Of a DNA stretch of 64,000 nt, positions 46,430 through 48,873 are shown piece by piece. The stretch lies in NCBI RefSeq assembly GCF_004799345.1, contig NZ_SSMC01000001.1:1240001-1304000 (forward strand). The letters run 5' to 3'. Position 1 is the first letter of the stretch; the number at the start of each line of letters is the position of its first letter. Origin of the DNA: Robertkochia marina. GTDB lineage: Bacteria; Bacteroidota; Bacteroidia; Flavobacteriales; Flavobacteriaceae. A program made the translations under genes and the position numbers. The notes beneath the pieces were generated by a model that worked only from the letters and a program-made list of their open reading frames with translations, ran no database searches and was not told the origin of the DNA.

Positions 46430-47404
46430 ATGGAGAAACAAGAGATTTTTGGCATTAAGAATAACCGGGATTTTGAGGAAGCCTGTTTGCAGGTCTTTCA
46501 ACAGCAGTACCGGGAAAATCGGGTATACCGGAAATTCTGCGATCTGCTTACCCGCACGCCCGAAGAGGTTTCATCTGTAGCATCCATTCCCTTTATGCCT
46601 ATTGAGTTCTTTAAGCAACACAGGATACTTTGCGAGGGAAGGGAAGTGGTACAGACCTTTACCAGCAGCGGTACCACGGGGTCTCAAACCAGTAAACATC
46701 ATGTGCCCGATCTCAGTATCTATGAGCATAGTTTCAGAAGAGGTTTTGAGCAGTTTTACGGTCCTGTAAAAGATTTTGTGGTACTTGCTCTCCTGCCTTC
46801 CTATTTAGAGCGTACCGGTTCTTCTTTGATCTACATGGTTGACGATATGATCAGGGAGTCAGATCATCCGGAGAGTGGATTCTTCTTGAAGGAGATCGAT
46901 GAGCTGGCTGTGCTTTTAAAAAGACTGGATCAGGAAAAGAAAAAGGTGTTGTTGATAGGGGTTTCTTTTGCCTTACTTGACCTGGTAGAGAGGCATCGCT
47001 TCCAATTAAAGCATACCGTGGTTATGGAGACAGGGGGAATGAAGGGTCGCAGAAAAGAGCTCATCCGAGCCGAACTCCACTCCATACTTAAAGAAGGATT
47101 TGGGGTTGGGCAGATCCATTCAGAATACGGTATGACCGAACTGCTGAGCCAGGCGTATTCCAGGGGAGACGGAATTTTTAATACCCCACCCTGGATGCGG
47201 GTGCTTATTCGCGATATGGAAGATCCTTTCTCCTACCTGGAAGATAACAGGACCGGGGGCATTAATGTAATCGATCTGGCCAATATACATACCTGCTCCT
47301 TTATTGCCACACAGGACCTTGGGCGCAGGCATGCTGGCGGTTTTGAAGTCTTGGGCCGCTTTGATAATAGTGATATCAGGGGGTGTAATTTAATGGTCAT
47401 GTAA
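46430..47404 (+). CDS. LuxE-type acyl-protein synthetase / adenylate-forming enzyme-like protein
   Basis: This 324-residue protein resembles the acyl-protein synthetase LuxE. It carries the adenylate-forming motif TFTSSGTTGSQTSKHHVPD near residue 80 and later VVMETGGMKGRRKEL and SEYGMTELLSQAYS, the A5-type signature of that superfamily. LuxE-type enzymes activate a fatty acid with ATP and transfer it to a Cys; no luxCDAB genes are here. In Bacteroidota such genes occur alone, with an unknown carboxylic substrate. The start at 46430 follows a -7 box and a terminator. A longer upstream frame crosses the previous gene and is not credible. Confidence 0.82.
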   Translation: MEKQEIFGIKNNRDFEEACLQVFQQQYRENRVYRKFCDLLTRTPEEVSSVASIPFMPIEFFKQHRILCEGREVVQTFTSSGTTGSQTSKHHVPDLSIYEHSFRRGFEQFYGPVKDFVVLALLPSYLERTGSSLIYMVDDMIRESDHPESGFFLKEIDELAVLLKRLDQEKKKVLLIGVSFALLDLVERHRFQLKHTVVMETGGMKGRRKELIRAELHSILKEGFGVGQIHSEYGMTELLSQAYSRGDGIFNTPPWMRVLIRDMEDPFSYLEDNRTGGINVIDLANIHTCSFIATQDLGRRHAGGFEVLGRFDNSDIRGCNLMVM

Positions 47405-47509
47405 CCACCCCGTTCACAGCTAAAGCTGTGGCCACCCCAGAACCACCCCGAATCACGCTATAAGCGTGATCCACCCCAGAACCACCCCGAATCACACTTA
47501 AAGCGTGAT
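47403..47509 (+). repeat. Three tandem 38-base palindromic units (AACCACCCCGA-hairpin)
   Basis: Units begin at 47403, 47441 and 47480 (spacing 38-39). Each has AACCACCCCG, a hairpin and CCACCCC. The hairpins differ in sequence but remain paired: CACAGC/GCTGTG, ATCACGCT/AGCGTGAT, ATCACAC/GCGTGAT (one mismatch). Preserved pairing with changing sequence indicates that the structure matters. Confidence 0.85.
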
Positions 47510-47512
47510 CCA

Positions 47513-47533
47513 CCCCTCCTTGGAAAGGAGGGG
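47513..47533 (+). repeat. 9-bp hairpin CCCCTCCTT-GGA-AAGGAGGGG, left arm
   Basis: A perfect 9-pair stem with a 3-base loop closes the left repeat array. The same hairpin core is present in the right arm at 47971-47991. Confidence 0.92.
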
Positions 47534-47594
47534 GTAAATTTTAATTCTTTTGAGAGTAGATCGAATATGTAGCATATATTCTATATATTTGAAA

Positions 47595-47957
47595 ATGCGC
47601 TCTAACTTCAATAGAAAATATCAGACGGAATACCGACGAAAGTTGAGAAATGAAGCAACACTTTATGAACGAACTTTATGGAGTAAGTTGCGTGGTCGTC
47701 AACTGGAAGGTAGAAAATTCAGGAGGCAGGCCGGTATAGGGAAATATATAGCAGATTTTTATTGCCCTTCTGAAAAGATGATTGTAGAATTAGAAGGGCC
47801 CTATCATTATACGGATCAAGTCAATGAAAGGGATAAGGAACGTGAATTATATTTCAAAAAATTAGGAATTAAAGTCTTGAGAATTCCAAATCCGCATAGT
47901 GCTGAAGCTCTCCGGAACGTATTAAATGAAATATCCTCTCAATTCAGGCCCGAATAA
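47595..47957 (+). CDS. DUF559 endonuclease-like protein
   Basis: This 120-residue protein is of the DUF559 type, a PD-(D/E)xK-like fold related to very-short-patch repair nucleases. Signature segments are ATLYERTLWSKLRGRQLEGRKFRRQAGIGKYIADFYCPSEKMIVELEGPYH, with Glu25, Asp54, Glu65 and Glu67 in the positions of a metal site (D-x10-E-x-E), then RELYFKKLGIKVLRIPN. It probably cleaves or nicks DNA. It is AT-richer than its neighbours, unlike them in strand context, and enclosed by inverted palindromic repeats. A start at 47595 is preferred because it begins the conserved block; 47550 is a non-ATG extension. Confidence 0.88.
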   Translation: MRSNFNRKYQTEYRRKLRNEATLYERTLWSKLRGRQLEGRKFRRQAGIGKYIADFYCPSEKMIVELEGPYHYTDQVNERDKERELYFKKLGIKVLRIPNPHSAEALRNVLNEISSQFRPE

Positions 47958-47970
47958 AAGCACTAATTAC

Positions 47971-48013
47971 ACCCTCCTTTCCAAGGAGGGTCGCTGATGA
48001 TCTATCATCAGCG
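47971..48013 (+). repeat. Right-arm hairpins ACCCTCCTT/AAGGAGGGT and CGCTGATGA/TCATCAGCG
   Basis: Two perfect 9-pair stems stand side by side (47971-47991 with loop TCC, 47992-48013 with loop TCTA) followed by GGGTGGTT. They mirror the left arm: read on the other strand the order is again ACCACCCC-hairpin-ACCCTCCTTGGAAAGGAGGGT. Confidence 0.9.
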
Positions 48014-48027
48014 GGGTGGTTAAAGCA

Positions 48028-48873
48028 TCACCGAGGCAATTCGAACCGATAGAGCACCCCGCCTTCCCCGTGGCTTCGTTCATCAGAGAGCAGCAGGGTA
48101 TGATGGTCATAAAAGCACAAGCCTTCTTTCTGGGTGCGGTGCTCGAGGTCTATGACCTTGAATTTTGGTACCTCGTCTGTTCCCAGGAAATTGGCAGCCA
48201 GCAATACCTTATCATAAGTTAAAAGTGCCAGGGTTTTTCCGTCCGGGCTGATATCGGCGGCAGTAACCCTGCAGTTATCGTTGTCATCACAGGCCGGGAT
48301 CTCAGCTACTAATTTTGCAGTGTATTTTCCGGAGGCAGCAGGTACGGAGTACACCTTCACCAATTCTTCCTCTTCCTCATTTTCGTCTTTGGAAAAAATA
48401 TATAGCCTGCCCTTGTGGTACACCAGGGCTTCTGCATTGATGGGTTGATTCTTTTTATGTCCGGGGTAGCGGAATTCAATTTCTTCTGCTTCCATATCGT
48501 CTCCGGTTGCTGAGGCCGGATTTGGCAGCTTGTATATAAAAAGTTCATCGCGTTTATAACTATTGTTTCCAATGTCTGCGATGTAAACATTGCCTTTTTC
48601 ATCAGCGGCAATGTCTTCCCAATCTTCATTTACAGCCCCTTTGATATTGAATTCCTTCACGATCTTCCCCTGAATATCCAGGCCGTATAGATGATCCTTG
48701 TTTCCTGAATCATTAATGCTCCAGATCAGATCGCTTCCCGGCACGGTTTCCAGACCTGAGTTTTCACGCATTTCCTCGGGCAACCAGGTGAGCACTTCCA
48801 GGTGATCAGGGATCGTTTGGCTGCAATTAAAAGAGAGTACCCATATTAATATGGAGGTGATGGTCCATTTCAT
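48028..48873 (-). CDS. Beta-propeller lipoprotein (SdiA-regulated-like)
   Basis: This 281-residue protein has a short signal and lipobox (LSFNC, Cys 17), then repeated blades, NSGLETVPGSDLIWSINDSGNKDHLYGLDIQGKIVKEF, DWEDIAADEKGNVYIADIGNN, AEALVYHKGRLYIFSKDEN, AADISPDGKTLALLTYDKVLL and KEGLCFYDHHTLLLSDE. The motif E(D/G)I(A)xDxxGNxYIADIGNN resembles the SdiA-regulated/esterase-like propeller family. No enzyme site is evident, so an extracytoplasmic binding or scaffold role is likely. The gene runs convergently to the LuxE-like gene, with the repeat element between them. Confidence 0.75.
   Translation of the reverse strand: MKWTITSILIWVLSFNCSQTIPDHLEVLTWLPEEMRENSGLETVPGSDLIWSINDSGNKDHLYGLDIQGKIVKEFNIKGAVNEDWEDIAADEKGNVYIADIGNNSYKRDELFIYKLPNPASATGDDMEAEEIEFRYPGHKKNQPINAEALVYHKGRLYIFSKDENEEEEELVKVYSVPAASGKYTAKLVAEIPACDDNDNCRVTAADISPDGKTLALLTYDKVLLAANFLGTDEVPKFKVIDLEHRTQKEGLCFYDHHTLLLSDERSHGEGGVLYRFELPR

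Follow-up and report, generated by a model that had tools for sequence, protein, structure and literature searches.

A DUF559 nuclease gene between GC-rich palindromes in Robertkochia marina is probably one copy of a widespread small mobile unit

REP and REPIN sequences and their RAYT (TnpA-REP) enzyme, an HUH/Y1 transposase, are systems of small GC-rich palindromes, solo or paired, that are scattered over a genome and bracket a nuclease gene, with a GTAG tag at the end of the repeat. Rickettsia palindromic elements reside within protein-coding genes. PARCELs are also palindromic DNA in protein-coding genes, as tandem repeats of 25 residues (PMC2996958). According to a 2013 survey, no transposase seems to be dedicated to the dispersed palindromes termed CGTC REPs, which are reported from Bacteroidetes and other groups; the survey identifies RPE-6 with CGTC-1 and RPE-4 with CGTC-4, and describes stems of 8–9 bp that almost always begin with AT, and a CCA tail (PMC3733652). 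Free-standing homing endonucleases occupy conserved sites in filled and empty states; the EDxHD endonucleases, exemplified by I-Bth0305I, are one of six homing families listed in a review (PMC3943268). DUF559 is a widespread domain without an assigned function, of which E. coli K-12 has one, ycjD, whose protein profile retrieved Vsr in 2005 (PMC1189080).

Here we describe a DUF559 gene enclosed by palindromes in Robertkochia marina, within a window of 64,000 nucleotides (contig NZ_SSMC01000001.1, positions 1,240,001–1,304,000), and follow such genes through other genomes. The gene-plus-palindrome unit is larger in scope than this single locus: DUF559 genes are associated with palindromes in several phyla, are present or absent at fixed sites and reside in frame within other genes, and the nucleotides of the palindromes are conserved. 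We propose, with a probability of about 0.72, that the window holds a member of a widespread family of small mobile units, each a DUF559 gene between GC-rich palindromes, accompanied by REP-like solo units and spreading by a cut-and-copy process. Like REP/RAYT systems, these units combine dispersed palindromes with a nuclease gene, but their enzyme is a DUF559 protein of predicted restriction/Vsr-kind fold and they also lie in frame within housekeeping genes. They resemble I-Bth0305I and other free-standing homing endonucleases in profile, fold and the alternation of filled and empty sites; unlike these, they have flanking palindromes and solo palindromic copies, without an intein domain or annotated intron. 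As in Rickettsia palindromic elements and PARCELs, the in-gene units place palindromic DNA within genes, although PARCELs differ as tandem repeats. Each property has a parallel elsewhere, and the combination did not turn up in the open-access literature: our search there, a weak basis for absence, returned no DUF559 paper about palindromes or mobility in the text available, and searches there on palindromic elements carried in frame within genes, on Rickettsia palindromic elements and on homing nucleases of the Vsr type listed none on DUF559 elements.

The element spans positions 47402–48022 of the window and is flanked by two convergent genes outside it, LuxE-like on the left (PF04443; 46442–47404, plus strand; start codon uncertain) and SdiA-regulated-like on the right (48028–48873, minus strand; score slightly below the Pfam cut-off). 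An earlier note on this DNA had described perfect 11-nt ends, and on recheck the outer boxes TAACCACCCCG (47402–47412, plus strand) and CGGGGTGGTTA (48012–48022, minus strand) are indeed exactly complementary. The same note placed the element exactly between the two stop codons. This holds on the left, where the TAA of the LuxE-like gene (47402–47404) lies within the box and is supplied by the element end as claimed, but the stop of the right neighbour (48028–48030) lies 5 nt past the element. The left arm has the three units previously described, spaced 38 and 39 nt apart: ACCACCCC, a hairpin and CCACCCC (47404–47438, plus strand), a second unit of the same plan with a different stem sequence (47442–47477, plus strand) and a third built likewise (47481–47516, plus strand), followed by the palindrome CCCCTCCTT-GGA-AAGGAGGGG (47513–47533, no strand assigned). 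Units 2 and 3 form a 39-nt direct repeat (92%). The right arm, said to carry this architecture in reverse, does so in its palindrome CCCTCCTT-TCC-AAGGAGGG (47972–47990, no strand assigned), hairpin (47992–48013, minus strand) and box, but has one unit rather than three, and its hairpin and palindrome are not separated by CCACCCC. Between the arms, the best inverted repeat measures 24 nt (96%). Folded as single-stranded DNA, the arms give z-scores of −6.3 and −7.2, values that none of 200 shuffles of either arm reached, and the hairpins therefore exceed chance. GC hairpins in both arms thus enclose one intact DUF559 gene, as first reported.

That gene (PF04480; 47595–47957, plus strand) starts at an ATG; the automatic open reading frame listing begins at TTG 47550, and the frame is open. 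Its protein matches PF04480 with an E value of 2.3 × 10−29 (101.9 bits against a cut-off of 20.6) and no other family in the Pfam search; no transposase was detected among the open reading frames and Pfam matches of the element. An Rfam scan up to an E value of 1 gave a single match, inside the DUF559 gene and under the gathering score of the family. GTAG, the tag of REP repeats, is absent from both strands of the window arms (47402–47534 and 47967–48022), a result limited to these arms because the ends of the other 29 units in the genome (below) are fixed by the search pattern.

Among solved structures, the profile of the protein finds 3hrl (E = 3 × 10−27), I-Bth0305I (3r3p; 3.1 × 10−4) and PvuRts1I (0.01). 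The AlphaFold model (pLDDT 88.5) gives a similar picture in Foldseek, with 3hrl the sole match below 0.001 (7.8 × 10−7), followed by two Toxoplasma mitoribosome chains, PvuRts1I and I-Bth0305I at 2 × 10−3 to 8 × 10−3; 3r3p itself has an E value of 5.1 × 10−3, a probability of 1.00 and a TM score of 0.72 by target, with the two mitoribosomal chains ranking between it and 3hrl. Profile and model together place DUF559 near the homing endonuclease I-Bth0305I, with a predicted Vsr/I-Bth0305I-like fold of the restriction/Vsr kind. Residues E25, D54, E65 and H71, all present in the window protein, are conserved across a 36-row DUF559 alignment and may be catalytic; the invariance of D54 is partly due to selection, as it lies inside the stretch used for locus finding, and columns 50–57 of alignment A1 are invariant for the same reason, since loci were picked with peptide patterns of the window protein (for example, KYIADFYC). 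An aspartate is found at the D54 position in the in-gene copies inspected as well.

The earlier note had proposed a search for empty sites, and these exist in the genus. The LuxE-like gene is present in all five genomes examined, for which downstream content was read by eye. In G002, the closest by that gene (75% identical), the SdiA-like gene comes next with neither a DUF559 gene nor units between, so the same junction is empty; in G003 it holds a DUF559 gene that runs the other way and has a unit pair of its own. The flanks of the G003 junction match those of Robertkochia sediminum locus L014, whose DUF559 protein is 54% identical to that of the window. G001 also has a DUF559 gene at this junction, as part of a larger array where a box-bounded stretch of approximately 200 nt recurs on either side as a direct repeat, and G004 has a junction without DUF559 and with a different neighbour. 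In the DUF559 tree, the window and G003 proteins form a starred pair with the G001 protein outside it.

Units also occur away from any such gene. The R. marina genome has five PF04480 matches and 31 strict units (box, gap and palindrome half; reversed-pattern control, 0), of which two belong to the window element and 29 come no closer than 2.7 kb to a PF04480 match. The 31 units hold 27 distinct inner sequences, and their halves pair better with each other than when swapped between units (mean of 4.4 versus 2.3 pairs; maximum of 500 swaps, 3.1), on a stem score that underestimates stems. Repeats at many places with no link to DUF559 had been named as evidence against a mobile unit; taken literally, 29 of 31 units are such repeats, but REP/RAYT systems show solo copies too, so these do not refute the idea. 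A repeat-flanked nuclease gene with dispersed solo repeats, the REP/RAYT arrangement, is indeed what the window element and its host genome present. Of 34 genomes searched, five have the window-type unit and all five carry DUF559; the congener lacking DUF559 (G004) has no such unit, but neither do many of the 34 genomes that carry DUF559, and since the unit type is restricted to the genus and one relative, this co-occurrence rests on five genomes. Some window-type units read CCCCGTC...CCA, as in CGTC REPs, but most stems do not fit the consensus as worded in the text of the survey, compared by eye. Elsewhere in the host genome, two DUF559 copies lie approximately 4 kb apart (L001 and L004; C1, about 384–388 kb) next to genes that look dinB-like and dnaE-like by eye; the L004 match contains an internal stop, and the L001 copy is found at the same place in G002 (L133). 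Two adjacent same-strand DUF559 genes (L003 and L005; C2, about 558 kb) stand by a dihydrolipoamide dehydrogenase-like gene, and G002 has one DUF559 gene (L136) at apparently the same place.

Association with palindromes extends well beyond the genus. Peptide patterns of the window protein yielded 80 DUF559 loci from Bacteroidota, Chloroflexi, Rickettsiales, candidate phyla and many Clostridia; many are from related Clostridia and are therefore not independent. After exclusion of short flanks (5 loci for the inverted-match test and 4 for the hairpin tests), the 300-nt flanks match each other exactly, in inverted orientation, over at least 13 nt at 45 of 75 loci compared with 26 of 2,067 shifted placements, and a GC hairpin with 7-bp arms lies within 250 nt on both sides at 51 of 76 loci compared with 8 of 2,111 placements. 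Other open reading frames of the same loci have the two-sided hairpin in 3 of 204 cases, a comparison with the 51 of 76 for DUF559 whose P value overstates independence because the loci are often related. Palindrome pairs of the CCCTCTCC type are common among the flanks listed, which come from 38 loci. In a Flavobacteriales sample, only 34 of 69 loci pass the two-sided hairpin test compared with 1 of 560 placements (70 were fetched, and L231 was dropped as another kind of match). Against the mobile-unit reading stand this pass rate in Flavobacteriales and the failure of 25 of the 76 loci, 15 of which have no hairpin on either side; among those failing, some show shorter palindromes by eye and L030 none, and the 7-bp arms overlook 5-bp palindromes such as those of metH.

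The longest match between flanks is inverted at 41 of 75 loci, direct at 30 and tied at 4; among the 45 loci with an inverted match of at least 13 nt, the inverted match is longer than the direct one in 33. Boxes face outward in the window and inward in Clostridia, a non-uniformity that counts against the mobile-unit reading and a variation between lineages that every model must accommodate. Palindromes stand on one or both sides of DUF559 in all 10 plasmid records read (of 37 matching; picked for variety) and in the one phage record read (of 2), with those from E. coli in the plasmid collection having them on one side only. The Neisseria copy has flanks in direct orientation, the Sphingomonas unit lies between sufB and sufC, and on a Synechocystis plasmid an annotated DUF1156 gene precedes the unit and, by eye, seems to continue beyond it. 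Pedobacter loci L018, L026, L032 and L033 have direct repeats of 42–87 nt in their flanks; those inspected have ends like AACCTC...GAGGTT, as in miniature elements.

DUF559 occurs in 88 of 296 Flavobacteriales genomes, and 29 of the 95 matches there with E values of at most 1 × 10−15 lie inside frames of at least 500 amino acids. All 29 were read: 10 are in leuS, 6 in metH, 4 in recG and 4 in genes to which no name was given, with one each in ileS, a type I restriction-like helicase, a UvrD-type helicase, a type ISP restriction enzyme and a methylase. Another search added two: one lies in recG of G010, the other, a degenerate copy, in leuS of G006. Pfam scans of seven host proteins place host domains so that they flank or span DUF559 in six, and only after it in L138; the other host genes were named from motifs by reading. 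An intein domain is absent from these seven hosts, as is an Rfam match above the gathering score from the window copy. Many in-gene copies start with box and palindrome and finish with palindrome and box, like the window element, and their stems vary by host yet remain paired in most copies; counting against the mobile-unit reading, those in L129, L144, L161 and L228 have no clear palindrome pair, lost or never present. On quick trees, the copies in leuS, metH, recG and ileS form one clade (support 89, not starred) with branches linked to site: recG copies make one group, metH changes three times and leuS four, all below every shuffle. Vertical descent with recombination could partly account for this site linkage, a further point against the mobile-unit reading. 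The leuS insert of L154 has a second in-frame palindrome pair without a nuclease gene, resembling a non-autonomous copy. In L135, a very large protein resembling a helicase has a weak DUF559 match (E = 1 × 10−4) towards its end, probably a different, fused use of the fold.

Within one genus, metH offers an alternation of filled and empty alleles at the same conserved site, as is known for homing endonucleases. The search in that genus matched 137 of 150 genomes, and 50 loci, made up of the 30 best matches and 20 others selected mainly for long frames, were read as 13 filled, 36 empty and one unparsed; as a share of such a selection, 13 of 50 should not be taken for an occupancy rate among the 137. 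In a quick tree built from 420 columns of neighbouring metH sequence (with a long-branch warning), the filled state requires five changes, four of them forced by starred branches. About eight codons, QAGDKQGN in the commonest empty linker, are missing from the filled alleles, so simple excision would not yield the commonest empty form; the difference would fit a gain that replaced sequence, or an exchange of entire alleles. No target duplication was recognized at metH by eye, and the junctions are ragged. At four-fold degenerate sites, the mean frequency of the majority third base is 0.95 in the palindromes (12 sites) and 0.52 in both the nuclease (17 sites) and the host gene (17 sites). The synonymous sites of the palindromes are thus near-frozen while those of nuclease and host vary, which indicates that selection or copying acts on their nucleotides. 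In L219, the palindromic ends of the metH insert are greatly enlarged and translated, with near-copies on both sides.

These observations partly bear out the earlier proposal of a minimal mobile unit, comparable to REP/RAYT pairs but with another enzyme: the multi-phylum association, the empty and reversed junction, the in-frame copies and the conserved palindrome nucleotides favour it. The best reading is a homing-like or a REP/RAYT-like mobile unit, in which the nuclease would cut hairpin or target; in this sequence analysis we saw no clean insertion with target duplication, and neither transposition nor cleavage was observed. In the mechanism that we suggest, the nuclease would cut a target, which may be an empty site or else a hairpin, whether at the ends of the unit itself or at solo units; repair by the host would then copy the unit into the break and so spread it. 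Inside genes, the unit might be tolerated in a linker and read through in frame. Both in-gene and solo copies could arise from a single enzyme that cuts a hairpin or palindrome if repair then draws on a homologous copy. A more ambitious version makes DUF559 the driver of a new class of mobile element, with the palindromes as its ends and substrate, the nuclease moving gene-bearing and solo units alike, and essential genes invaded in frame and unspliced, where the palindromes would serve as flexible Pro/Gly/Ser linkers; we put this at slightly under even odds. Where the earlier note had the nuclease act on hairpins, cutting of an empty target site fits the in-gene copies at least as well. These copies, linked to site and branch, look like homing, and the solo units look like REP. 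A tentative reading, which we hold at clearly less than even odds, is narrower and overlaps the best explanation: a free-standing homing endonuclease acts at a conserved site (leuS, metH, recG or a gene junction) by cutting its empty allele, and gene conversion copies the whole block, the palindromes being boundary or repair signals only that spread as passengers or by-products of repair. The likeness to I-Bth0305I in profile and fold, the several changes of state at one metH linker and the site-linked DUF559 branches of recG, metH and leuS all suit it, but alone it leaves unexplained both the 29 solo units of the host genome and the palindromes beside DUF559 at unrelated sites in other phyla. 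Those dispersed solo units, with stems that differ yet stay paired, are what a REP/RAYT-like process would be expected to leave. In such a process DUF559 would act on hairpins in single-stranded DNA, for instance at replication forks, and mobilize both solo and gene-bearing units; this is likewise a narrower form of the best explanation, and is further favoured by the presence of DUF559 in every unit-bearing genome of the 34 searched and by the lack of the unit in the DUF559-less congener. We regard it as rather unlikely in this strict form, as there is no HUH/Y1 enzyme, the co-occurrence is limited as described above and the predicted fold is of the restriction/Vsr kind. Nucleases of that kind usually cut duplex DNA.

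Two explanations dispense with mobility driven by DUF559. The placement of the window element between convergent genes and the wide occurrence of solo units would be natural if the palindromes were ordinary bidirectional terminators or REP clusters, a hot spot for insertion at which DUF559 arrived by chance; this is very improbable given that palindromes flank DUF559 within leuS, metH and recG, where terminators would be misplaced, that the synonymous sites of the metH palindromes are frozen and that two-sided palindromes are rare at other open reading frames of the same loci. It is also improbable that DUF559 is a domesticated repair or defence nuclease with palindromes that regulate its expression. 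PADLOC matches (weak; best E value, 1.4 × 10−4) and the ycjD region of E. coli, present at 80% or more in 3,364 of 5,426 genomes, lean that way, against which stand the patchy presence in Flavobacteriales, the in-frame copies in other genes and the several copies per genome, one of them broken. If DUF559 is the engine of a palindromic mobile element, as the best reading would have it, many orphan GC palindromes would be explained, REP-like repeats would gain a second, unrelated enzyme, a selfish gene would live in frame in leuS, metH and recG without splicing and DUF559 could be the missing enzyme for palindromic repeats without a known transposase; what moves such repeats becomes a directly testable question with a 120-residue protein.

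In E. coli, strains without ycjD have an eef operon between sapF and fabI, and ycjD, found in place of that operon, is a gene of undefined role, according to a published report (PMC12817139). A clean empty ycjD site was sought and rejected: the three ycjD-less strains read carry an RND efflux operon beside fabI, so there is no precise junction. Where ycjD is present, it lies between sapF and fabI with GC palindromes downstream, as for the DUF559 units described here; it differs from them upstream (approximately 1935–1980 of L272), where a long hairpin of a different kind is found, CACCTCATTCTGACAA...TTGTCAGAATGAGGTG.
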